64,000 bases of DNA from Corallococcus macrosporus DSM 14697 (lineage in GTDB: Bacteria; Myxococcota; Myxococcia; Myxococcales; Myxococcaceae): NCBI RefSeq assembly GCF_002305895.1, contig NZ_CP022203.1, positions 6,792,001 through 6,856,000 of the forward strand. The letters are read 5' to 3'. Numbering within the stretch: the first letter of the stretch is position 1; each line of letters opens with the position of its first letter. Under the pieces are notes generated by a model. It was given only the letters and a program-made list of their open reading frames with translations, had not been told where the DNA came from and searched no databases. A program made the translations under genes and the position numbers. Positions 17,479-62,442 of this stretch are shown one piece after another.

Positions 17479-17685
17479 ATGAAGAAGCTGGTGGCGGTGG
17501 CCGTGTTCGGCCTGATGGGAACCCTGGGAGTGGCCGCGCGCGTGGATGCCCGGCCGGGAGTGGACGGGATGGAGCCGACGGACGCACAGGTCGAGGCGGC
17601 ACTGGACGCGCGGCAGAAGCTGGTGCTGGGCAACCTCCTGAGGGTTCAACAAACAGCCGCACGCACGGCGGCAATCCACCGGTAA
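17479..17685 (+). CDS. Small exported protein of unknown function
   Basis: 68 residues with a strong ribosome site (GGAGG 8 bases before ATG 17479). The N-terminus MKKLVAVAVFGLMGTLGVAA is a clear signal peptide with cleavage likely near ARVDA. The mature part is a short, mostly helical peptide (TDAQVEAALDARQKLVLGNLLRVQQ). No family recognised. Monocistronic between the kinase and carD. Confidence 0.62.
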   Translation: MKKLVAVAVFGLMGTLGVAARVDARPGVDGMEPTDAQVEAALDARQKLVLGNLLRVQQTAARTAAIHR

Positions 17686-17766
17686 ACTCGTGGCGTCCGA
17701 CGTGGCTCGGTGCTAAGCCCGGGCCTGTTCCGACGTTCAGCCCACCAACCTCACCCGTGAGGGGAC

Positions 17767-18717
17767 ATGCCTGAAGGGTCCGCGTCACTCCAGCTCGCGG
17801 TTGGCGACCGGGTCGTCTATCCGAACCAGGGGGTCTGCCGCGTCTCCGCCATCGACGTGAAGGAAGTGGCGGGACAGAAGCTCACCTTCGTCACCATGCG
17901 CCGCGAAGAGGATGGCGCCGTCGTGATGGTGCCCGAGGGCAAGGTGCTCGCCATCGGCGTGCGCAAGGTGGCCTCCGCCGAGGACGTGGAGGCCATCTTC
18001 TCCTTCCTCCGCTCGGACAGCGACAAGGCCGACCTGGACTGGAAGCAGCGAGCGCGTACCAACCTGGACCGGATGACCCAGGGCGGCATCATGGGCCTGG
18101 CCGAGGTCGTCAAGGGGCTCCAGGTCCTCAGCGAGCTGCGCCCGCTGCCGACCAAGGAGCGCGAGCTCTACGACAACGCCCGCCACCTGCTGGTGACGGA
18201 AGTGGCCGCCGCGCTGGGCACCGCGGAGGTCAACGCCGAGGACGCCATCGACATCGTCCTGTTCCCGCCCGGCCGCGAGCGCCCCAAGCGCACCGCCGCC
18301 GAGTTCCAGCGCGAGGACGGCGACCTGGACCTGGAAGGCGACCTGCTGGGCCTGGACGGCGACCTGGACCTGCCCTCCGACGAGGAGCCCTCCGAGCCGT
18401 CCGAGGAGGAGTCCAGCGAGGAAGGCGAGGGCGAGGAGGCCGAGTCCTCCGAGGAAGCGGCCCCCAAGAAGCGCGGCCGTCCGCCCAAGGCGAAGGCGGC
18501 CCCCGCCGAGGGCGCCGAGCCCGCCGCGCCCAAGAAGCGTGGCCGCCCGCCCAAGCCCAAGCCGGAGCCCACGGCCGAGGGCGCCGAGCCGCCCGCGCCC
18601 AAGAAGCGCGGCCGTCCGCCCAAGCCCAAGCCGCCCGAGGCGGAAGGTGCCGCCCCCGCCGCGCCCAAGAAGCGCGGCCGTCCGCCCAAGGTCAACCCCC
18701 CCGAGGGTGAGAGCTGA
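17767..18717 (+). CDS. carD: Transcriptional regulator CarD (CarD/CdnL domain plus HMGA-like tail)
   Basis: 316 residues. Residues 1-160 form the CarD_CdnL_TRCF domain (VGDRVVYPNQGVCRVSAI; VPEGKVLAIGVRKV), which contacts RNA polymerase beta. Residues about 180-230 are highly acidic (DLDLEGDLLGLDGDLDL; EEPSEPSEEESSEEG). Residues about 235-312 hold four KKRGRPPK AT-hooks separated by Pro/Ala/Glu linkers, giving an HMGA-like DNA-binding tail. This architecture is that of Myxococcus xanthus CarD, which controls light-induced carotenogenesis and development together with ECF sigma factors. carG follows by 59 bp, as expected. Confidence 0.95.
   Translation: MPEGSASLQLAVGDRVVYPNQGVCRVSAIDVKEVAGQKLTFVTMRREEDGAVVMVPEGKVLAIGVRKVASAEDVEAIFSFLRSDSDKADLDWKQRARTNLDRMTQGGIMGLAEVVKGLQVLSELRPLPTKERELYDNARHLLVTEVAAALGTAEVNAEDAIDIVLFPPGRERPKRTAAEFQREDGDLDLEGDLLGLDGDLDLPSDEEPSEPSEEESSEEGEGEEAESSEEAAPKKRGRPPKAKAAPAEGAEPAAPKKRGRPPKPKPEPTAEGAEPPAPKKRGRPPKPKPPEAEGAAPAAPKKRGRPPKVNPPEGES
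18475..18699 (+). repeat. Four AT-hook coding repeats in carD
   Basis: Four near-identical copies of aagaagcgyggccgyccgcc (encoding KKRGRPP) start at about 18475, 18535, 18601 and 18667, spaced 60-66 bp by Pro/Ala/Glu-coding linkers. They build the HMGA-like DNA-binding tail of CarD and could allow copy-number change by recombination. Confidence 0.85.
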
Positions 18718-40682: not shown

Positions 40683-42749
40683 TCAGCGCCCCACCGCCAC
40701 CGGTGACAGCCGGCCGATGGGGCGAATCTGCAGGGCCCCATCCAGCTCGCCATAGGTGAGCACCGCCACGTCCGGGAACGCGCCCTCGCACAGCCTGCGC
40801 AGGGGCCTCCGGACGTCTGGAGCCGTCAGCAGCACGGCCCGTCCTTCGGTGGCCACCTGCCGCACGCCTTCGAGGATTTCGGCCACCCGCTCCGGGTCGG
40901 GCGCCAAGCCCCGCGGTCCCATGCCGCGCAGCACCTCCTCCACCTCCGGGTCCACGAGGTACGCGTACAGCGGCCCGGTGGGGGCGAACTTGTGGCTGAG
41001 GTACCGGCGCAGCGCCTGCCGGCAGCGCTCCGCGAGCGCGACGGCATCGCCCTCCGTCGTCGGCGACACCAGCGCCTCCAGGATGGCGCGCAAATCCCGG
41101 ATGCTGACGCCCTCCTGCAGCAGCTTGCGCAGCACGTCCGTGAGCAGCGGCAGCGGCACCTTCTGCAGCGCCTCCTTCACCAGCACCGGCGCCTGCGCCT
41201 CCAACCCCTCCAGCAGCCCCTGGACGTCCTGCAGCCCCAGCAAATCCGCGGCTCGGCCCCGCAGGATGGCGCGCACGTGGTCCGCGAGCAGCTCCCCCGG
41301 ACGCCGCAGCGGCACCTGCGCCGTCTCCAGCAAGGCCCGCCCGGACTCGGGGATGCGGCTGATGACCTTCCCGCTCGCGGGCTCCGTCGCGGCCTCCGCG
41401 CTCACCTGGAGGAACGCGAGTTCGTCCGGGGGGGCCAGCGCATAGAGCGCGCCGGGAATCACCTGCCCTCCCCCCGCGGGGACCTCGTCCACCAGGACGC
41501 GATACTCGCCGGAGGACAGGTAGGCGGCGTGCGTGCGCACCCGGAGGCCAGGCACCCGCACCCCCAACTCGAAGAACAACTCGTCCCGCACGCCATTCAA
41601 CGTCTTGTGGACGAAAGCAGCCCCCTCCGCTTCCGCCAGCACCGTCAAATCCGGCGCCAGGTCCAGCGTGAGCGGAGCGACCCCCACCGGTGACGAGGCG
41701 CTCTCCGGCGGGGCGCCAGCCGCGCCAGGCGCCGCGCCTTCCACGGGCGCAGTCCCCGCCTCCTCGACCTTCGTGACGGCATGCCGGCTCAACACCTGGC
41801 CAAGCCCGCCCAGGCCTCCCGCCAGCAGCAGGAATGTCAGGTGCGGCATCCCCGGCATGAGGGCCAGCGCGACGCACAGGCCCGCCACCACCCAGAGCGT
41901 CCGCGCCTCTCCGAAGAACTGGGTACCAATCTCCGTCCCCAGCGAGTCCTCCTCCTTCTCCGAGGCGACCCGGGTGACGACGAGGCCCGCGGCCACCGCG
42001 ATGCACAGCGACGGCACCTGGGACACCAGGCCATCACCAATGGCGATGAGCGCGAACGTCGACGCGGCCTCGCCCAGGGGCATGCCGCCCTGGAGCACAC
42101 CGATGAGGGTGCCTCCCAGCAGGTTCACCGCGACGATGACGAGGCCCGCAATCACGTCCCCCTTCACGAACTTCATCGCGCCGTCCATGGCGCCGAACAT
42201 CTGCGACTCGCGCTCCAAATCCCTCCGCCGGCGCCGGGCCTGGGTCTGGTCGATGGCACCCGCGCGCAGGTCCGCGTCGATGGACATCTGCTTGCCGGGC
42301 ATCGCGTCCAAGGTGAAGCGCGCGGACACCTCCGCCACGCGCTCCGCCCCCTTGGTGACGACCAGCAACTGCACCAGGGTGAGGATGGCGAAGACCACCG
42401 CGCCCACCACGTAGTCCCCCCGGACGACGAACTCACCGAAGGCCTGGATGACGTCCCCCGCGTGGCCATCCGCGAGCGCCAGCCGCGTGGAGGACACGTT
42501 GAGCGACAGCCGGAACAGCGTGGTGAACAGCAACAGCGTGGGGAACGACGTCACCTTCAAGGCGTCCCGGGCACGCAACGCGGCCACCAGCAGGGCCACC
42601 GACGCCGCCAGATTGACGGCGAGCCCCGCGTCCAGGAGCCACGCGGGCAAGGGGATGATGAGCGCGCCCAGGACGGCGGCCATGGCGACCGCGAGCACCA
42701 CGTCCGAGGAGCTCCGGGCCTTCAGCAATACCTTCATGAGGGGGGGCAT
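40683..42749 (-). CDS. sctV: Type III secretion export gate protein SctV (FlhA/YscV family)
   Basis: 688 residues. N-terminal half has about eight membrane helices (LGALIIPLPAWLLDAGLAVN; FPTLLLFTTLFRLSLNVSSTRLAL) and the FHIPEP-family signature RFTLDAMPGKQMSIDADLRAGAID near residue 145-170. An Ala/Pro linker at about 330-360 leads to the cytosolic domain that forms the nonameric ring and docks substrates (PGLRVRTHAAYLSSGEYRVLVDEVPA). Last gene of the operon; its start overlaps sctU by 16 bp. Complete length suggests function. Confidence 0.93.
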   Translation of the reverse strand: MPPLMKVLLKARSSSDVVLAVAMAAVLGALIIPLPAWLLDAGLAVNLAASVALLVAALRARDALKVTSFPTLLLFTTLFRLSLNVSSTRLALADGHAGDVIQAFGEFVVRGDYVVGAVVFAILTLVQLLVVTKGAERVAEVSARFTLDAMPGKQMSIDADLRAGAIDQTQARRRRRDLERESQMFGAMDGAMKFVKGDVIAGLVIVAVNLLGGTLIGVLQGGMPLGEAASTFALIAIGDGLVSQVPSLCIAVAAGLVVTRVASEKEEDSLGTEIGTQFFGEARTLWVVAGLCVALALMPGMPHLTFLLLAGGLGGLGQVLSRHAVTKVEEAGTAPVEGAAPGAAGAPPESASSPVGVAPLTLDLAPDLTVLAEAEGAAFVHKTLNGVRDELFFELGVRVPGLRVRTHAAYLSSGEYRVLVDEVPAGGGQVIPGALYALAPPDELAFLQVSAEAATEPASGKVISRIPESGRALLETAQVPLRRPGELLADHVRAILRGRAADLLGLQDVQGLLEGLEAQAPVLVKEALQKVPLPLLTDVLRKLLQEGVSIRDLRAILEALVSPTTEGDAVALAERCRQALRRYLSHKFAPTGPLYAYLVDPEVEEVLRGMGPRGLAPDPERVAEILEGVRQVATEGRAVLLTAPDVRRPLRRLCEGAFPDVAVLTYGELDGALQIRPIGRLSPVAVGR

Positions 42750-43795
42750 GACGTCTGTCTCCGTGGATGGCCGTCCAGCTCCCGCGCGTCCATCGCCGTG
42801 CGCAGGACGACCGCGGCCGCCTGGTACAGCTCCTCCGGGATGGGCTCGCCCACGTCGTAGTGGATGAGGCTGCGCGCCAGCGGGATGTCCCGCACCACCG
42901 GAATGTCCAGCCGGCGTGCCTGCTCCCGCATGGCGAGCGCGTCTGTCTCCCGGGCCTTGGCCACGAGGTAGGGCGCGTCACATTCGTCCGCGTCGTAGCG
43001 GAGCGCGACCGCGATGTGCGTGGGATTGACGACCACGGCTGTCGCCTTTTGCACCCCGCGTGCCGCGCCCCCCTGCGCCAACTGACGGTGCAGCGCCTTG
43101 CGCTGTCCCTTGTGCTGGGGGTCGCCCTCGCTCTCCTTGTACTCCCGCTTCAGCTCCTCGCGGGTCATCATCAAGTCCTTGAGGTGGCGCCGCCAGGCCA
43201 GCGCGTAGTCCCCCAACCCCAGCACCACAATCAGCCAGACCAGTCGGGTCGCCAGCCCGGAGACATGCGCGACCACCCGGCTGAAGGCCTCCGCGCCTCC
43301 CAGCCATGCGGTTCGCATCGCATCCGGCGCGGCCTCGCGCGCATCGCGCAGGACGAGCGCGCCCACCACGCCGACAATCAACATCAGCTTCGCCAGCTCA
43401 AACCACGGGCTCCAACTGAAGAGCCGCTGCAAGCCCGCCTTGATGCTGATGCGCTCCAGCCTCGGCGTCACATGCTGGAGCTCGGCCTCGAGCCCCACGG
43501 TGACCACCGAGGCGAGCAACGCCGCGGCGAACGCGCCCCCGAGGACCGGCCCGCAGAGTCGCGCGCCAATCCACACGCCCTCCTGCCATGCGCCCGCGTC
43601 CTGCTGTCCAAGGAAGAGCCGCTCCGTCCACGCATGGAGCCGCGCCATGCCCGTCGGCGCGGTCGAGGTGAGGCCAATCAGGCCCCCCGCCATCACCGCG
43701 CCGCCGTTCAGCACCCGGCTGCGGGGAATCTGCCCCTTGCGCCGCGCCTCCCGAAGGCGCTTCGCGCTGGGCTTCTCCGTCTTCTCGCCGCTCAC
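42734..43795 (-). CDS. sctU: Type III secretion switch protein SctU (FlhB/YscU family)
   Basis: 353 residues: N-terminal GEKTEKPSAKRLREARRKGQIPRS, four membrane helices (residues about 30-210), then the cytoplasmic domain with the self-cleavage motif NPTH (in AVVVNPTHIAVALRY near residue 263-266) followed by the family motif PVVRDIPLARSLIHYDVGEPIP. An intact NPTH implies normal substrate-switch autocleavage. Overlaps sctT stop by 4 bp and sctV start by 16 bp. Confidence 0.94.
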   Translation of the reverse strand: MSGEKTEKPSAKRLREARRKGQIPRSRVLNGGAVMAGGLIGLTSTAPTGMARLHAWTERLFLGQQDAGAWQEGVWIGARLCGPVLGGAFAAALLASVVTVGLEAELQHVTPRLERISIKAGLQRLFSWSPWFELAKLMLIVGVVGALVLRDAREAAPDAMRTAWLGGAEAFSRVVAHVSGLATRLVWLIVVLGLGDYALAWRRHLKDLMMTREELKREYKESEGDPQHKGQRKALHRQLAQGGAARGVQKATAVVVNPTHIAVALRYDADECDAPYLVAKARETDALAMREQARRLDIPVVRDIPLARSLIHYDVGEPIPEELYQAAAVVLRTAMDARELDGHPRRQTSCPPS

Positions 43796-44586
43796 CGCGC
43801 CACCTCCCCCAGCAGCGACAGCGCGCCCTCCACGGACAAGACACCCGCCAGCAGCCGCTCACACAGCACGCCCGTTCCGAGCCACAACACGGCGCCACCG
43901 CCCAGAATCTTCAGCGGCGCCCCCACCTCTTGCAGATTCACCTGGGGCGCCGCGCGCGAGGCCAGTCCCAGGAAGCAGTCCACGAGCAGCACCGCCGCCG
44001 CGATGGGCGCCCCCACCGCCAGCCCCGTCGCCATGGCGGCGCCCGCCAGCAGTGCGAGGTGCAACGTGGCCGCCTCGGTCGGGACGAAGGCTCCCAGCTT
44101 CACCACGCCAAAGCCACGCAACACGCTGGAGATGACGAGCGGCCACAGGCCACCGGAGACCACCAACGCAATCATCAGATGGTAGAGCCCCTCCCCCGCG
44201 GCGGCCTCGCGGCTCCCCGCATGGGGCAGGCTCGCCTCGGCGGAGGTGCCTCGAAGCAGGTCGATGAAGCGGCCGCCCATTCGCGCGGCATCGAACGGGA
44301 GCGCCGCGACGAGCCCCACGGACGTGCCGTACAGCAGCTCGCGGACCACCAACCCGCCCAGGGCCACCGTGGACGTGACGGGCGCGTCCAGGGCCACCCC
44401 CGCCTCGACGCGGAGGAACAGCGACAGGGAGAGCACCAGCGCCAGGCGCACCATCGTCGGCGTGGCCTGCCCTCCCAACAGAGGGCACAGGAGCGTGATG
44501 GGCAGCAGCCGGGCGGCACACAAGGCCACCACGACGATGTCGGGCCCCAGTGAATCCAGCCAGGCGCGAAGCGGCTCCAGGTTCAT
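43792..44586 (-). CDS. sctT: Type III secretion export apparatus protein SctT (FliR/YscT family)
   Basis: 264 residues from ATG 44586, which overlaps the sctS stop as ATGA. Hydrophobic throughout: ARLLPITLLCPLLGGQATPTMVRLALVLSLSLFL, LGGLVVRELLYGTSVGLVAALPFDAARMGGRFIDLLRG (family signature with E, G and RG positions), then three more helices. Core export gate subunit. One copy per complex in known systems. Confidence 0.92.
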   Translation of the reverse strand: MNLEPLRAWLDSLGPDIVVVALCAARLLPITLLCPLLGGQATPTMVRLALVLSLSLFLRVEAGVALDAPVTSTVALGGLVVRELLYGTSVGLVAALPFDAARMGGRFIDLLRGTSAEASLPHAGSREAAAGEGLYHLMIALVVSGGLWPLVISSVLRGFGVVKLGAFVPTEAATLHLALLAGAAMATGLAVGAPIAAAVLLVDCFLGLASRAAPQVNLQEVGAPLKILGGGAVLWLGTGVLCERLLAGVLSVEGALSLLGEVAR

Positions 44587-44852
44587 GCCGCGACCTCGGA
44601 GATGAGCAGCAGGAGCTGGTGCGTGAAGCGCGTGAGCTGCCCGGCAATCCAGGGGCCCGCCAGGACCAACGCCAGGACGGCGGCGCACAGCTTGGGCACC
44701 ACCGAAAGCGTGGACTCCTGAAGCTGCGTGGTGGCCTGGAACAGGCTCGACAAGAACCCCACCACCAGGCTCGCGCCAATCGGCGGCAGCGACGCCATCA
44801 CCATCAGCAGCAAGGCCTCGCGCCCCAGGGTGAGAAAGACATCCTGGGTCAT
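44583..44852 (-). CDS. sctS: Type III secretion export apparatus protein SctS (FliQ/YscS family)
   Basis: 89 residues from ATG 44852 (the open frame runs 17 codons further upstream, inside sctR). Two membrane helices with the family pattern LGREALLLMVMASLPPIGASLVVGFLSSLFQATTQLQE and TLSVVPKLCAAVLALVLAGPWI. Forms the helical export gate with SctR and SctT. Length matches FliQ (about 89). Confidence 0.93.
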   Translation of the reverse strand: MTQDVFLTLGREALLLMVMASLPPIGASLVVGFLSSLFQATTQLQESTLSVVPKLCAAVLALVLAGPWIAGQLTRFTHQLLLLISEVAA

Positions 44853-44856
44853 GGCG

Positions 44857-45588
44857 TCACCGGTAACCGAGGATGAGGCCCCGCGCGAGCAGCGACCAGC
44901 CATCCACGGCGACGAAGAGGAGAATCTTGAAGGGCAGGCTCACCTGGCTGGGTGACAGCGTCTGCATGCCCAGCGCGAGCAACACGTTGGCAATCACCAT
45001 GTCCAGCACGAGGAACGGGAGGAAGACGAGGAAGCCAATCTGGAAGGCCTCCTTCAGCTCGGTGATGACGAAGGCCGGGATGACGACGAAGAGGTCCGTC
45101 TCCCGCACCGACTCCAGCTCCTCCACCGGCCGCAGCTCACGCGCCAGGTCCACGAAGCGCGCGCGCTCCTCGGGGCTCCCGTGTTTGACAAGGAAGGCCC
45201 GCAGCGGCTCCGACACGCGGGACGCGGCGGAGAGCATCTCCGCGCCGGAGCCCGACGCCACCTGCGTGTAGGCCACCTGCCCCGCTTCGTACATGCGCTC
45301 CATCACCGGCGCCATGATGTGGCCGGTGAGCACCGCCGCCAGCCCCGTCAACACGATGGTGGGCGGCGCCTGCTGCGTGCCCATGGCCGAGCGGGCCAGC
45401 GACAGCACGACGGCGATTTTCGAGAAGCTCGTCAGCATCAACACCGCGAACGGCAGCAGCGACATCACCGCGAGCATGCCCATCATCGACAACGGGCTGC
45501 CTGCGTACGACATCCGAGCCAGCGAGCTCTCCGCCGCGGCGGCCACGGCCGGAACCAACACGAGCACGCCCACGAAGCCGCGGCTCAT
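44857..45588 (-). CDS. sctR: Type III secretion export apparatus protein SctR (FliP/YscR family)
   Basis: 243 residues with an N-terminal signal-like helix (VGVLVLVPAVAAAAE), as in FliP, then the family signatures SFSKIAVVLSLARSAMGTQQAPPTIVLTGLA and, near the C-terminus, ELKEAFQIGFLVFLPFLVLDMVIANVLLALGM. Pentamer-forming core of the export gate. It overlaps the FliO-like stop by 4 bp. A cleavable N-terminus is a flagellar FliP trait and is usually missing in injectisome SctR. Confidence 0.94.
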   Translation of the reverse strand: MSRGFVGVLVLVPAVAAAAESSLARMSYAGSPLSMMGMLAVMSLLPFAVLMLTSFSKIAVVLSLARSAMGTQQAPPTIVLTGLAAVLTGHIMAPVMERMYEAGQVAYTQVASGSGAEMLSAASRVSEPLRAFLVKHGSPEERARFVDLARELRPVEELESVRETDLFVVIPAFVITELKEAFQIGFLVFLPFLVLDMVIANVLLALGMQTLSPSQVSLPFKILLFVAVDGWSLLARGLILGYR

Positions 45589-46019
45589 GACCGCACCCGC
45601 CTGCCTCGGAGGACGCGTGGCCTGGGCATGGGCCGGCGCGCCTGCGCCAGGACATGGCCGAACTCCGGAGCCGGCGCGGGCGTCTCGCGAATCTCCGCGA
45701 ACGCGTCACCAAAGGCCACCAGGTAGCTGTGCCCGTCCACCTCCACGAGCGCCACGCCGCACCGCTGGGACAGCCCCGCCCGCGACACGACGTTCAGCCG
45801 GGGCGCATCGGGTGCGCCCGTGACGGCGCCGCCGCGCCGGTGCAGCCACCAGCCCAGCACGGCCAGCGCCACGCCTCCCAGCAGCCACCGCGCGGCCACG
45901 GTGGAGGACACTCCCGCCACAGGCCCCAGGACGGTCAACGCGAGCACCAACGCCCCCGCCAGCAACAAGCGTGAGCGCGGCGAAGGAACGAAGCGCTGTG
46001 CATTCATGAGCGGACTCAC
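45585..46019 (-). CDS. FliO-like small membrane protein in the T3SS operon
   Basis: 144 residues from GTG 46019 (GTGA overlap with sctQ stop); ATG 46007 is an alternative. One or two membrane helices (RLLLAGALVLALTVLGPVAG; WLLGGVALAVLGWWL), then a short beta-rich cytoplasmic domain (LNVVSRAGLSQRCGVALVEVDGHSYLVAF) and an Arg/Pro tail. This is the FliO pattern: helix followed by a strand-rich motif with a conserved VEVxGxxYL-like core. It sits between FliN-like sctQ and FliP-like sctR, exactly where fliO is in flagellar operons. FliO is not part of classical injectisomes. Call by topology, motif impression and position. Confidence 0.6.
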   Translation of the reverse strand: MSPLMNAQRFVPSPRSRLLLAGALVLALTVLGPVAGVSSTVAARWLLGGVALAVLGWWLHRRGGAVTGAPDAPRLNVVSRAGLSQRCGVALVEVDGHSYLVAFGDAFAEIRETPAPAPEFGHVLAQARRPMPRPRVLRGRRVRS

Positions 46020-47161
46020 GGCAGCAGCGCCAGGACGCGGGCACCGACCTCGCCCTCGATTTCCACCAGCTCGGCGCGGGCCACCGCGCGGTCTCCCACG
46101 CGCAACACCACCGGCTCACTGGCGTTGATGTGCAGGGGCAACAGCGCGCCCGGCTTGAGCGCCGCGAGCTCCGACAAGGGAATCATCACCCGCGTCAGCT
46201 CAATCTCCACGTCCACGGGCAGCGGAGGCATCCCGTCCTCCGGCTTGTTCACGGCCACCATGTCCGACTCCTGGGGAATCGCGCGCCGCTGCGCGCGGGT
46301 CAGAGAAAAGCCCTCGGCGAGGAAGTCCCCCGAGAGCGCGAATCCACGCGTCACCAGCCGCCCGGGCCCGAGGAGCTGGCCGGCCTGCTTGCGCACGCCC
46401 TCGAAGACGACGACGTCCCCCACCACCAGCGCGTCCACCGCGTTCACGGGAAGCGGCGTCTGCCCCACGAGGCAGCGGGTCTCCAGCGATGCGGCCAGCA
46501 CCTCCGCCGCGATGTCCGGCGCCCGCTCCACGGGGAGCGGCTGGAAAATCGTCTGGACGGCCTGCGCCGGCAGCAGCAGCCTGGCGCCCGCCCGCGCCTC
46601 GCCCACGGAGAGCAGCAGCTCGATACCCAGCAACGGCTGGCGAGGCTCCAGGCGTGACACCACGTCCGCCTTGCACATCGTCACGCCCGCGAGCCGGGGC
46701 CCCAGCCACGAAGAGGCCCCGCCCGAGTCCCGCGCCGCGGACAGCGCGACGAGCAGGACATACGCCAACGTCGCTTCTTCCAGCCGCGCCAGCTCCGTGA
46801 CGACGCCGGGGCGCTGCCCCGCCCCCGCGATGCGCTCCAGCCCCATGAAGGCGAGCGCGGGCTCCAGCTCCAGCACCGCCGTGCCACCCACCGCGGACAA
46901 CTCCAGCAGCGCGAAGACGGCGGGCTCGCACAACCCCTCCCCAGGCGAAACGACGGCGTCCAGGAGGCGGGCCTCCGCCCGCACCGGGCAGCCCAGCTCC
47001 CGCGTCAGCGCCTCCGCCACCGCCAGCAACGCCTGCCGCCCGAGCCCCGCGGCCTGGGGACGCTCCGCGAGCACGAGGTGCGCGCGGGCCAACCGGCGCG
47101 TCCCCAACCGGCGCAGGGGACGGACCTTCCGGTGGGGCACATGTTCGATACGGGTGTTCAT
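46016..47161 (-). CDS. sctQ: Type III secretion C-ring protein SctQ (FliM/FliN-like)
   Basis: 381 residues from ATG 47161. The C-terminal 75 residues are a SpoA/FliN domain (PLPVDVEIELTRVMIPLSELAALKPGALLPLHI...VVLRVGDRAVARAELVEIEGEVGARVL). A second SpoA-like segment is visible at about 235-300. The N-terminal part resembles the FliM/SctQ middle domain only weakly. Cytoplasmic sorting platform or C-ring. 147 bp downstream of the 47309 gene and overlapping the FliO-like start. Confidence 0.88.
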   Translation of the reverse strand: MNTRIEHVPHRKVRPLRRLGTRRLARAHLVLAERPQAAGLGRQALLAVAEALTRELGCPVRAEARLLDAVVSPGEGLCEPAVFALLELSAVGGTAVLELEPALAFMGLERIAGAGQRPGVVTELARLEEATLAYVLLVALSAARDSGGASSWLGPRLAGVTMCKADVVSRLEPRQPLLGIELLLSVGEARAGARLLLPAQAVQTIFQPLPVERAPDIAAEVLAASLETRCLVGQTPLPVNAVDALVVGDVVVFEGVRKQAGQLLGPGRLVTRGFALSGDFLAEGFSLTRAQRRAIPQESDMVAVNKPEDGMPPLPVDVEIELTRVMIPLSELAALKPGALLPLHINASEPVVLRVGDRAVARAELVEIEGEVGARVLALLP

Positions 47162-47308
47162 CCATTGCTCCGGTGCTGCATCGGGACGCACCCCACCCGT
47201 GCAGGGCCCCCGCCAGGGGCCAGGCTCGTGGAGTCGCGGGGTTGGGTGGGCGCGGCATCCGCTCGCGGGACGCCGGGTACGAGGGCCGGGACGGCGCCCC
47301 TCACGGGC

Positions 47309-47800
47309 TCAGCGCGTGGCCTCACGGATGAGGCGCTCGGCCAGCGCGCCGAGCGCGGGCGGAGCCTCCGCGCGCGGTGGCACCGGCTTCTCTTCGGGAA
47401 ACAGGGTCCGGTGGTACGGGGGAAGACGTCGGAAGAGCTCCTGGCGAAGCAAGGGGGGCGCCTCGCTCATGAGGCGCCTCAGCCGCGCGGCGGCATCGGG
47501 CCGCTCGCCGAACTCCACTGAGACCTTGGCCTGACGTTGCGCGGAGGGCAGCGCGGCCAGGCGCTGGAGGTGCGCTCGCGCGTCCCCCGCCGCCGCTTCG
47601 CCCAGGCCTCCCAGCAGCGCCCCCGCCCGCTCCCGCCCCAGCACCCACGCGACGAGCGCGAGGCGCTCCAGTGGAAGTGGCAGGGGGCCCACGAGGCGCG
47701 GCACCTCCTCGGTCGGCGCGGCGGCCCGGACAGAGCCGGAGCTGCGGACCGGACGGGGCTTGCGCCCCACGCGTGTCGCGTCCATGCGTTCGCTCTCCAT
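47309..47800 (-). CDS. T3SS-associated protein, possibly SctK or FliG N-domain-like
   Basis: 163 residues, 7 bp after sctJ. A helical core at residues about 42-100 (LALVAWVLGRERAGALLGGL, then AAALPSAQ-type helix and VSVEFG) has the helix pattern of the FliG N-terminal domain that binds FliF. The C-terminal segment (LRQELFRRLPPYHRTLFPEE) is Pro/Arg-rich. Injectisome operons have sctK here, flagellar ones fliG. Sequence support is weak; position is the stronger argument. Confidence 0.5.
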   Translation of the reverse strand: MESERMDATRVGRKPRPVRSSGSVRAAAPTEEVPRLVGPLPLPLERLALVAWVLGRERAGALLGGLGEAAAGDARAHLQRLAALPSAQRQAKVSVEFGERPDAAARLRRLMSEAPPLLRQELFRRLPPYHRTLFPEEKPVPPRAEAPPALGALAERLIREATR

Positions 47801-47807
47801 GGGGCGC

Positions 47808-48611
47808 TCAAGCCACCTTGCGCGCCGGCCCCTGCGACAACACGGGCCGGGCAGGGCCAGGCGGCACGGCCGGAGCCACCGGCCGGTCGCGGTAGTGCCG
47901 CATCCGGAGCGTCACCCACACCAGCGCCACCGACAGCCCCGTCACCATGAGGCCCAACAGCGCCAGCAAGGCACGCAGCCGGGTCAGCGGCGAGACGCCG
48001 CCGCCCGACGGAGGTTCCACCCGGGAGGAGACCTCGTCCACGAGCAGCGACACGGCCTCCGGCGTCAGCCCCTCCACGCCTCCCGCGAGGAGGACCTTCA
48101 ACGTCTCGGAGGACTGCCGCACCCGGGCGGCGCTGCCCGGCGCCACCCGGAGCATGGCGGACGCCTTCGACGGCCCCGGCGCCTGCCCCAGCCTCGGCGG
48201 CGCGGGCACCACCAGGTGGACGCGCGCGAGCAGCACCCCTTCCACCGACTGGAGCGTCTTCTCCAGGCTCCGCTCCATCACCCGCACCCGGCAGACGCTC
48301 TCCTCCACCGGCGTGCGCACCAGCCCGCCACCGCCGAAGACGTCACAGCCCACTTCCTCCTGGGGCCTCGGCAGTCCGAGCTCCGCCAGGATGCGCACCG
48401 CGTCCGAGGCGTGCTCATCCGCCACCTCGATGGACCAGGTGGGCTTCTTGCCTCCCTCGGGGACCTTGCGCGCGTCGAGCCCTCGCTCGACGAGCACCGA
48501 TTGAAGCTCGTTGGCCTGCCGCTCCTCCAGGCCATGCTGGATGCGCTCCCGGCACGCCGTGACACTCAAGAGCAGAAGGAGAAGGAAACAGCGACGGGGG
48601 GGAAATCGCAT
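47808..48611 (-). CDS. sctJ: Type III secretion inner-ring lipoprotein SctJ (YscJ/FliF N-domain family)
   Basis: 267 residues. Signal MRFPPRRCFLLLLLLSVTAC with lipobox Cys20, then the YscJ domains: LEERQANELQSVLVERGLDARKV and the motif SLEKTLQSVEGVLLARVHLVVP, followed by a C-terminal membrane helix near 222-244 (LALLGLMVTGLSVALVWVTL) and a basic tail. Forms the inner-membrane ring of the basal body. Length and lipoprotein signal are injectisome-like, unlike full FliF. Confidence 0.92.
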   Translation of the reverse strand: MRFPPRRCFLLLLLLSVTACRERIQHGLEERQANELQSVLVERGLDARKVPEGGKKPTWSIEVADEHASDAVRILAELGLPRPQEEVGCDVFGGGGLVRTPVEESVCRVRVMERSLEKTLQSVEGVLLARVHLVVPAPPRLGQAPGPSKASAMLRVAPGSAARVRQSSETLKVLLAGGVEGLTPEAVSLLVDEVSSRVEPPSGGGVSPLTRLRALLALLGLMVTGLSVALVWVTLRMRHYRDRPVAPAVPPGPARPVLSQGPARKVA

Positions 48612-48621
48612 CGGGTGCTCC

Positions 48622-49107
48622 TCAAACCTGGGTCTGGAGGACCTGCTTCACGCCGCCAGTCGCCTTCTCGACGACCTTGCCGGCGAGGTCGAGCTCCTGG
48701 CTCGCCCGGTAGACATGGGCCTGCAACGCGAGCAGCTCCGCGGGTGTGAAGCTGCGGCCGGACTGCGCCAGGTGGAGGATGTGGTCCAGCCGCTTCTGCG
48801 CCTGCCCCACCCGGTCCAGCACCTGCGCCGCCTGCTGCGCGCGCGCCGCCTGCACCGAGTCCACACGGGCGCCCGGCTTCACGTCCGCGCGGCCCGGCGC
48901 CGCGGGCCCCACGCCCTCCGCCCGGGAGACACCGCGCGGCGCCGACGTGGGCGCGGACTTCGGCGGCCCCTCGGTGGCCACCGGAACCCCGGCCCCCTTC
49001 GCCGGCCCCTTCACGTCCTCCAATACCTTGCCGAAGCGCTCCCGGCTGGGCTCCACCGCGGGCGCCGCGCCCGCGCCCCCCACCGGCCCCAACGTGTCCA
49101 TGGCCAT
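48622..49107 (-). CDS. sctI: Type III secretion inner rod protein SctI (YscI/HrpB family)
   Basis: 161 residues. The N-terminal 90 are Pro/Ala/Gly-rich. The C-terminal 50 match the YscI pattern: FTPAELLALQAHVYRASQELDLAGKVVEKA and the end VKQVLQTQV, with the ELLALQ and KVVEKAT blocks typical of rod subunits. Lies 15 bp after the first gene and 10 bp before sctJ, i.e. F-I-J order. Would form the inner rod or connector below the needle. Confidence 0.8.
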   Translation of the reverse strand: MAMDTLGPVGGAGAAPAVEPSRERFGKVLEDVKGPAKGAGVPVATEGPPKSAPTSAPRGVSRAEGVGPAAPGRADVKPGARVDSVQAARAQQAAQVLDRVGQAQKRLDHILHLAQSGRSFTPAELLALQAHVYRASQELDLAGKVVEKATGGVKQVLQTQV

Positions 49108-49122: not shown

Positions 49123-49590
49123 TCAGCGGATGTTGTTGATGGCCGCCTTCGCGGAGTCGTGGCGGACCTTCATGATGTTGGAGACCGCGTTGTGCTCGCG
49201 GCTCTCCTTCTGCATCTCGTTCTGGAGCTGCAGGTAGGCCATGTTGAACTTCTGGCCCTCCGCGGTGAGCACCTTCTGCGCCTCCAGCAAATCCCAGGCG
49301 TCCTGGTTGCCCGCCGCGGCCCCCGCGCCCGCCGCCCCTCCTGTCTCCGCCGAGGCGGGAATCCCCGCCGGGGACGCCTTGGTCGCCACCGCCGACACCA
49401 CCGTCTTCGCGCTGGAGACGGCCGCGCTGAAGATGGGGCCCGCCGGAATCATGCCGCCCACCAGGCCCGCGCCCGAGCGCACCACCTCGTGCGCCGCGCG
49501 CGCCAGCACCGCGCCGAATTCGTTCTGCGGCGTCTGCCGCGGAACCGTCTGGGTGATGGTGAGGGTGGGAATCCGACTGTCATTGGACAC
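49123..49590 (-). CDS. First gene of T3SS operon; protein with needle-subunit-like (SctF/PrgI) C-terminus
   Basis: 155 residues from GTG 49590 (GGAGG 6 bases upstream). Residues 1-80 are Ala/Val/Ser-rich with a hydrophobic stretch (GAGLVGGMIPAGPIFSAAVSS), 81-92 are Gly/Ala filler. Residues about 95-155 form a helix ending in a motif at 133-155 (NAVSN at 134-138, K141-V142, D145, A149, I151, N153, R155). By eye this matches the C-terminus of Salmonella needle protein PrgI (NAQSN...KV...D...A-I..N-R), 11 of 23 positions. The place before sctI-sctJ is that of prgI in prgI-prgJ-prgK. Twice the usual needle length, so function is uncertain. Confidence 0.6.
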   Translation of the reverse strand: MSNDSRIPTLTITQTVPRQTPQNEFGAVLARAAHEVVRSGAGLVGGMIPAGPIFSAAVSSAKTVVSAVATKASPAGIPASAETGGAAGAGAAAGNQDAWDLLEAQKVLTAEGQKFNMAYLQLQNEMQKESREHNAVSNIMKVRHDSAKAAINNIR

Positions 49591-49624
49591 GGGCAGCCTC
49601 CTGCGGAGAGTTGCCCGGCCCCAG

Positions 49625-61077: not shown

Positions 61078-62442
61078 CTACGTGGCCCCCATCGCGCCGT
61101 GCAGCTTGCGGAGGTTGTGGGTGAGACAGATGAGCGCCCACTCGCCGCGCGCCTTCTCCAGCCCGCGCAGCAGCAGTTGCCGGAAGCCTCGCCCCTGCTT
61201 GATTTGGCCGAAGGGCGGCTCGGCCGCCACCTTGCGCCGGGCGTACACCTGGCGGCCCTTTTTCGTCCTCAGCCGGCGCGCCATCCACTGCTTGAGGCTC
61301 AAGTCTCGAGGCCTCCGCCCCCGCACTGGCGGGGGCTGCACCCCATGCTTGAGTCGGCCGGTGGCGATGTACGCGTCGACGCCCATGCTCGCCGCACGCA
61401 CCACGTTCTGCTCGGAGAAGTAGCCGCTGTCGGCTGTCACCGCCCCGGGCACCTCGCCGCAGTTCTCCACCACCTGCTCCAGCAGCGGCAGCAAGTGCTC
61501 GACATCCGGCGGCTGGTTGGTAAGCGCCTGCGCCACGATGATTTGGTGCGCCTCGTCCACGGCCGCCTGCGCGTTGAAGCCCTGAATGAAACCGTCCTTC
61601 GTCTTCTGGATTCGGCTCTCCGGGTCGGTGAAGTTGCGCTGGGCCTTGGGGGTGGGCTTGCCGTCCTTCTCGGTAGGCACCCGGTGCTCGGGCAGGGGCG
61701 TCGGCCCAGACGGCGGCTCGTCGTCCGAGTCCTTCTTCTTCTGGGCCTCTTGCGCCTCATGGGCGGCCCGGGCTTCCGCCTCCAGCTCCGCCTTGGCCTC
61801 GCGGATTTTCGCCAGCCGCGTCTCGGCCCGCTGCAACTCCTTCGGCAACTCGTCGCCTCGCCTCAGCTTGCCGTAGAGTCGGTCCTCCGCCGCGTCCGCC
61901 TCCTCGGCCGCCTTCAGCAGCGCGGCCACCTTCTCGGCCAACTCCTTCTCGCGCTGCTGCATGCGCTCGTAGCTCATCGCCTTGTGCTTGCTGGCATTCG
62001 CCTTCAGCTTCGTGCCGTCCAGCGCCACGTGCCCCAGCTTCACCAGCCCCGCCTTCTGGCACAGCGCCAGCACCTGCACGAAAAGTCCCGCCAGCACGTC
62101 CAGGTGCTGGCGACGGAACTCGCTCACGCAGGTGTGGTCCGGGTGCTGCCCCGCGGCGATGACTCGGAAGGCGACGTCCTCGTACGTCTTCTTCTCAATC
62201 CTGCGCGAGGAGGCCACTCCCACGCAGTAGGCGTACAGCAGCAGCCCCACCATCATCCGCGGGTGGTGCGGCGGATAGCCACGCAGCTCCCGCTCATACC
62301 GGGCCAGCAGCGGCCTGAGGTTCAGCTCCGCCACCGTGTCCAGGATGAAGTACGCCAGGTGCCCGGCCGGCAGCCAGTCTCGGGGCGAGGGCGGCAGCAA
62401 CTCCGACTGCTCGGGTGCGTAGGGGCGGAAGACCTTGCTCAT
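61078..62442 (-). CDS. IS1182-like transposase (IS5/IS1182 superfamily, DDE)
   Basis: 454 residues from ATG 62442. N-terminal helical DNA-binding part (GHLAYFILDTVAELNLRPLL; YPPHHPRMMVGLLLYAYCVG), then the DDE catalytic fold: first Asp in VALDGTKLKANAS, second in VTADSGYFSEQN, Glu in AAEPPFGQIKQGRGFRQ. A charged coiled-coil-like insert of about 100 residues (REKELAEKVAALLKAAEEAD; then KKKDSDDEPP) separates the first two. No stop or frameshift. An 11-bp hairpin sits directly before the start codon. Confidence 0.92.
   Translation of the reverse strand: MSKVFRPYAPEQSELLPPSPRDWLPAGHLAYFILDTVAELNLRPLLARYERELRGYPPHHPRMMVGLLLYAYCVGVASSRRIEKKTYEDVAFRVIAAGQHPDHTCVSEFRRQHLDVLAGLFVQVLALCQKAGLVKLGHVALDGTKLKANASKHKAMSYERMQQREKELAEKVAALLKAAEEADAAEDRLYGKLRRGDELPKELQRAETRLAKIREAKAELEAEARAAHEAQEAQKKKDSDDEPPSGPTPLPEHRVPTEKDGKPTPKAQRNFTDPESRIQKTKDGFIQGFNAQAAVDEAHQIIVAQALTNQPPDVEHLLPLLEQVVENCGEVPGAVTADSGYFSEQNVVRAASMGVDAYIATGRLKHGVQPPPVRGRRPRDLSLKQWMARRLRTKKGRQVYARRKVAAEPPFGQIKQGRGFRQLLLRGLEKARGEWALICLTHNLRKLHGAMGAT

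Follow-up and report, generated by a model that had tools for sequence, protein, structure and literature searches.

Needle proteins of family SctF (PrgI, MxiH, YscF/PscF and EsaG; PF09392 and TIGR02105) are about 80 aa long. Their C-terminal helices make up the needle core and their N-termini face outward, the lumen of PrgI needles being lined by K66, D70, Q77 and R80 (PMC6455054). In PscF, D76 (equivalent to PrgI D70) is essential and its replacement in D76A blocks polymerisation, and the double mutant P47A/Q54A (Q54 being equivalent to PrgI Q48) is defective in needle assembly (PMC6455054). Myxobacterial non-flagellar systems (Myxo NF-T3SS) were previously divided into 'short' and 'long' loci (Abby and Rocha 2012, PMC3459982). 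In the literature available without subscription, and hence without the primary 2022 T3SS* report, a needle homologue was stated to be absent from myxobacterial T3SSs (PMC3459982, PMC10849154, PMC10433427, PMC12075869). The evolutionary scenario of PMC3459982 places the loss of SctF in the basal myxobacterial lineage, and Kil-pilus tips were modelled as needle substitute in the predation system T3SS* (PMC12075869). Yet, whereas SctF was stated to be absent or lost from the published short and long loci and from T3SS*, an SctF-like gene opens both variants in the genome studied here.

The window (the whole stretch of 64,000 nucleotides that was analysed, positions 6792001-6856000 of the 8.97 Mb genome) carries the short variant; the long variant lies elsewhere in the same genome, where SctJ and SctV are each encoded twice. 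The short operon, given in window positions, is organized as follows:

49597..49602, minus strand: Shine-Dalgarno sequence AGGAGG of F1, 6 nt upstream of GTG
49123..49590, minus strand: F1, 155-aa needle-like protein with GTG start, opening the short T3SS operon
48622..49107, minus strand: SctI (inner rod), PF17001 E 2.1e-4, FGKVL motif near residues 25-30
47808..48611, minus strand: SctJ (inner ring, lipoprotein-type), PF01514 E 1e-18
47309..47800, minus strand: 163-aa gene between sctJ and sctQ, no Pfam family, syntenic in relatives
46016..47191, minus strand: SctQ (FliM/FliN-like), PF01052 E 1e-18
45585..46019, minus strand: FliO-like protein, PF04347 E 3e-6
44857..45588, minus strand: SctR, PF00813 E 3e-65
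44583..44852, minus strand: SctS, PF01313 E 3e-25
43792..44586, minus strand: SctT, PF01311 E 1e-35
42734..43795, minus strand: SctU, PF01312 E 9e-89
40683..42749, minus strand: SctV, PF00771 E 5e-204

The earlier note had recognized the open reading frame at 49123-49590 and an F-I-J gene order. Both were confirmed, the former as a 155-aa gene with GTG start on the minus strand (the strand was absent from that note), and the latter by the SctI (PF17001, E 2e-4) and SctJ (PF01514, E 1e-18) genes that come after F1. Intergenic gaps are short (15 nt between F1 and sctI, 10 nt between sctI and sctJ and 7 nt between sctJ and the 163-aa gene), and the order mirrors prgI-prgJ-prgK. SctD, SctL and the ATPase were not found in the short locus of the window, and no secretin belonging to the short or the long locus was found. 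These missing components, together with the relic status assigned in an early annotation (cited by PMC3459982), would suit a decaying locus in which F1 is a functionless vestige. Such decay is nevertheless very improbable, given intact reading frames, a gene order kept across distant families and 97% conservation of the C-terminal 35 residues of F1.

Within F1, the following segments were distinguished:

49504..49518, minus strand: residues 25-29, FGAVL, of the type F-x-x-x-hydrophobic, proposed gate-recognition motif common to SctI
49315..49386, minus strand: residues 69-92, variable Ala/Gly/Ser-rich linker, mean column identity 0.48
49129..49314, minus strand: residues 93-154, single long helix predicted by AlphaFold2, pLDDT about 80-93 at 101-150
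49126..49239, minus strand: residues 118-155, needle-like C-terminal domain, in which Q123, K141, D145 and R155 are aligned with PrgI Q48, K66, D70 and R80
49126..49194, minus strand: residues 133-155, 23-residue motif of the PrgI comparison

The match to PrgI that the earlier note gave for the C-terminal 23 residues proved to be exact: residues 133-155 and the PrgI C-terminus (sequence from PDB 3zqb) share 11 of 23 positions (N134, A135, S137, N138, K141, V142, D145, A149, I151, N153 and R155). None of 200,000 shuffles of this motif reached 11 identities and a single one equalled its BLOSUM62 score. Likewise, none of 1,012,660 background 23-mers from other ORFs had 11 identities to PrgI, the maximum being 8. 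At the profile level, the F1 C-terminal helix aligns with SctF needles without gaps over 38 residues and up to the exact C-terminus. In this register, PrgI Q48, K66, D70, N78 and R80 fall on F1 Q123, K141, D145, N153 and R155. Among 35 diverse C-terminal domains (alignment A2, collected with the F1 profile itself and without a needle profile), the Q48 and N78 positions were invariably Q and N (35/35 each), those of K66 and D70 were K/R and D/E throughout (35/35 each), and that of R80 was R, H or K in 34 of 35.

Beyond this helix, F1 differs from SctF needles: it is 155 aa long versus about 80, its N-terminal half is unalignable, its Ala/Gly linker is long and variable, and a hairpin is not predicted. 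Conservation in the F1 family nonetheless follows the needle pattern, with a column identity of 0.97 at residues 121-155 (97%) versus 0.48 in the linker (48%). The Ala/Gly-rich stretch described in the earlier note was retrieved as a linker, but the N-terminal part of F1 proved just mildly hydrophobic, the best 19-residue Kyte-Doolittle mean being 1.43 (residues 40-58). This value is unconvincing as an anchor, and a membrane-anchored descendant of a needle protein, also considered in that note, was rejected on this ground. AlphaFold2, run on a shallow alignment of 17 close sequences, returned one helix of 62 residues (93-154) without hairpin (pLDDT 59.5, pTM 0.26) and low-confidence helices at 25-43 and 54-68; a Foldseek search with this 17-sequence model yielded no match. 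Built on so few sequences, the model speaks neither for nor against a needle fold.

As a single sequence, F1 has PF09392 as its top Pfam match, below threshold (13.6 bits against a cut-off of 29.4, E 0.08), and no match to TIGR02105 was obtained. Specificity was high at the genome level, since a six-frame search with PF09392 (E<=10) recovered F1 of the long locus (0.071), F1 of the window (0.75), sctI of the long locus (1.6) and nothing else. In about 28 other Myxococcaceae genomes, long-locus F1 was among the few PF09392 matches and usually stood alone at E<=0.1, and larger F1 relatives in two genomes (G104 and G157) exceeded the PF09392 cut-off. Comparison of A2 with a needle profile (PrgI/MxiH/7y6c_F) by hhalign gave an ungapped alignment of 38 columns (90.8%, P 1.2e-6, score 32.6). 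By comparison, 150 column permutations peaked at 21.4, the reversed needle scored 11.5, SctI 15-16 and other T3SS families at most 16.5. The profile search suggested earlier against needle families therefore succeeds at the family level (P 1.2e-6) and stays below the cut-off with the single sequence.

Two other readings of the similarity have to be weighed here. An amphipathic Ala/Gln-rich helix could come to resemble needle C-termini by convergence, without common ancestry: single-sequence scores are sub-threshold, helical sequences readily yield weak matches, and a few A2 members match unrelated helical Pfam families too. Still, the shuffle, permutation and T3SS-protein controls, the whole-genome specificity, the exact C-terminal register and the conserved needle-critical residues make convergence improbable. 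Likewise, the Pfam families matched by at least four A2 members were HrpF, the SctF needle, an unrelated helical domain and the HrpA pilin, so that needle, HrpF and HrpA account for three of the four. These HrpA pilin, HrpF and EspA matches came from some members (HrpF 11/35, HrpA 4/35, EspA 1/19) and were weak; they lay below the cut-off, and an architecture equivalent to those proteins was not seen.

F1 might otherwise be a second rod-type (SctI-like) protein or a flagellin D0-like remnant, as it shares an operon and a similar N-terminal FxxxPhi motif with SctI, and a homology of SctF with flagellin-type proteins was proposed (PMC3459982). This is the least probable reading, with hardly any weight: a bona fide SctI follows F1, F1 does not match the SctI family PF17001, the score of the family profile drops from 32.6 with needles to 15-16 with SctI, and Pfam flagellin models were absent among the A2 matches. 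The rod-like option of the earlier note is accordingly disfavoured. Identities of F1 with SctI and with flagellin D0 were both rejected on the hhalign scores and the Pfam matches of A2.

Searches of the PDB gave contrasting results depending on the alignment. With A2 alone, hmmsearch found no needle, and an 11-sequence profile of full-length F1 retrieved just spurious coiled or designed proteins. A bridging set of 71-74-aa and larger proteins (A3) placed T3SS needles as the 15 top PDB matches (best E 6e-7; MxiH 1.8e-5; PrgI 5.8e-5; YscF 0.0095), recognized F1 of the window in a whole-genome search at E 4.5e-11 and aligned with A2 at 98.6% (E 5e-16). These A3 intermediates seem to connect F1 to canonical needles, a link that is partly circular because A3 was chosen in part with PF09392.

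Altogether, the C-terminal domain of F1 is very probably homologous to SctF needles, as judged from sequence comparison. The six-frame genome search, the survey of Myxococcaceae genomes, the Pfam matches of A2 and its hhalign score weigh more here than the weak single-sequence results, and none of these four involves sequences picked with the needle profile. The needle homologue postulated in the earlier note hence stands for this domain at the family level, in line with the shared gene order, the conserved needle residues and a motif likely to mark an early substrate, and does not stand as a canonical SctF. F1 was not filed as such because of its length, its own sub-threshold score and an unproven hairpin.

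The consensus of the gate-recognition motif is F-x-x-x-hydrophobic. Such a motif was present near the N-terminus of the full-length F1 proteins examined and of nearly all SctI, and the gate-recognition motif is reported to be conserved in SctI and SctF (PMC8983047). F1 is thus a likely early substrate that would bind through this motif.

Genes for D, L and N as well as for TPR chaperones are present in the long locus (about 2.84-2.86 Mb), where the sole T3SS-ATPase C-domain of the genome is also encoded. The content of this locus agrees with that of the published predation T3SS* (MXAN_2434-2464; PMC12075869, PMC10433427). The first gene of this locus is a paralogue of F1 (2837709-2838278, 189 aa, 31% identity, E 2e-17), and the needle question therefore extends to T3SS*, where the paralogue occupies the same slot. 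The predation context proposed for F1 in the earlier note thus applies to its paralogue, which heads the predation (long) locus, but not to the window, which holds a short, SctD/SctN-less Myxo locus; the link of F1 itself with T3SS* is accordingly indirect. Unlike published T3SS* descriptions, the long variant additionally carries needle-sized genes.

Arrangements around F1 were retained in distant families, with F1 before sctI-sctJ in short loci and TPR-X-sigma-sctI-sctJ-sctD after F1 in long loci. The TPR protein following long-locus F1 has LcrH/SycD as its best NCBIfam model (E 4e-14), and TPR-fold proteins chaperone needles in known systems (7y6c; PMC3084799). Members of the F1 family occurred in 156 of 195 Myxococcota genomes and the export-gate family FHIPEP in 161, with both in 150 and neither in 28 (odds ratio 64). 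Nine F1-less genomes, in which a gate gene was either absent or single and unlinked (and then presumably flagellar), gave no A3 match.

The same C-terminal module was found at the end of proteins of 71 to >500 aa, many of them adjoining TPR chaperones. Its presence in much larger proteins, seen in many genomes, is as compatible with a shared docking module as with a polymerising subunit. Flagellar hook-associated proteins likewise share D0 helices. F1 could therefore own the needle docking module without being a filament subunit, acting instead as an early-secreted adaptor, a tip/cap or a translocator-like protein, with the true needle elsewhere, e.g. among 71-74-aa proteins. The long locus does hold proteins of this size, one of which (71 aa, between sctU and sctV in other Myxococcus-group genomes) gives a full-length match to PF09392 (E 6.8e-5), and the weakly hydrophobic Ala/Gly stretch of F1 would suit such a role. 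Yet, in short-locus genomes (family f3) F1 was the sole small needle-like gene found, the second match being a much larger protein, and F1 heads both loci, standing in the short one directly before sctI as prgI does before prgJ-prgK. An adaptor or tip role is thus the main rival of a filament subunit, though a rather unlikely one.

The sctU-sctV slot of long loci is reminiscent of YscX-YscY (SctX-SctY), which lie beside sctV, in that it likewise holds a small secreted-type protein and TPR chaperones. Contrary to YscX, however, the slot proteins gave no YscX profile match and matched the needle family instead.

The explanation retained here as a whole, with a confidence somewhat above even, is that F1 is a divergent SctF relative serving as an early-exported axial filament subunit; for the filament function taken by itself, the balance likewise tilts slightly in favour. 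F1 would be exported early through the SctRSTUV gate, its FxxxPhi motif docking on SctU, and its C-terminal helix would then be incorporated into a short axial filament standing on the rod made of SctI. The conserved face formed by Q123, K141, D145 and R155 may line the channel, and the N-terminal half and the linker, both variable, would face the outside, like the variable N-terminus of known needles. Since neither locus owns a secretin, this filament may stay periplasmic or borrow the outer-membrane pore of another system.

The label "needleless" given to myxobacterial T3SS is probably wrong, since a diverged needle relative heads the operon and a sister copy is present in the prey-lysing system. 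A needle relative heading both loci would turn the loss of gene SctF into divergence, would leave the secretin-less ancestor with an axial filament and would name concrete genes for study. More tentatively, one may imagine that Myxococcota T3SSs put one modular needle-like C-terminal domain on a universal axial subunit (F1), on needle-sized subunits of 71-74 aa and on large, TPR-chaperoned proteins of translocator or effector type, building a heteropolymeric, flagellum-like axial/tip structure, T3SS* then being a real injector directed against bacterial prey.

Several additional elements were recorded in the course of this study. Two identical, needle-sized ORFs of 74 aa (2855251-2855475 and 2857666-2857890; L023:15252-15476 and 17667-17891, minus) lie on the opposite strand within the predation T3SS* locus. 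They are possibly unannotated, since spurious plus-strand ORFs overlap both. The pair flanks a TPR chaperone and a DUF1521 gene (PF07481, E 2e-13; L023:15740-16909, plus strand), whose product adjoins that chaperone. DUF1521 occurs in rhizobial T3SS effectors, which makes this protein an effector candidate.

An orphan 498-aa protein (7028571-7030067; L159:1492-2988, minus) is weakly NolX/HrpK1-like (E 3e-5 and 1e-4), displays a needle-like C-terminus and is followed by an LcrH/SycD-type chaperone gene (7028043-7028564). It is a candidate for the translocator that the system is said to lack. Large proteins at L168, L172, L174, L110, L112 and L116 combine a helical segment of the type (N/D)-P-x-(I/L)-(S/P)-(I/L)-E, a Gly/Ala hydrophobic stretch and a needle-like C-terminus, and several adjoin TPR chaperones; from these sequence traits they look like an undescribed Myxococcota translocator or tip family. 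In one deep Myxococcota genome (G190), 13-14 proteins end in a needle-like module, most of them being 200-700 aa long and encoded on different contigs.

A protein 86% identical to F1 was encountered on a 1-Mb contig (BNCN01000001.1) named Comamonas sp. KCTC 72670, which looks like a mislabelled Myxococcus genome. Finally, a DDE transposase (PF01609) is encoded at window positions 61078-62442 (minus strand), upstream of a cluster of MoxR/Bat-type genes that occupies 52-60 kb.
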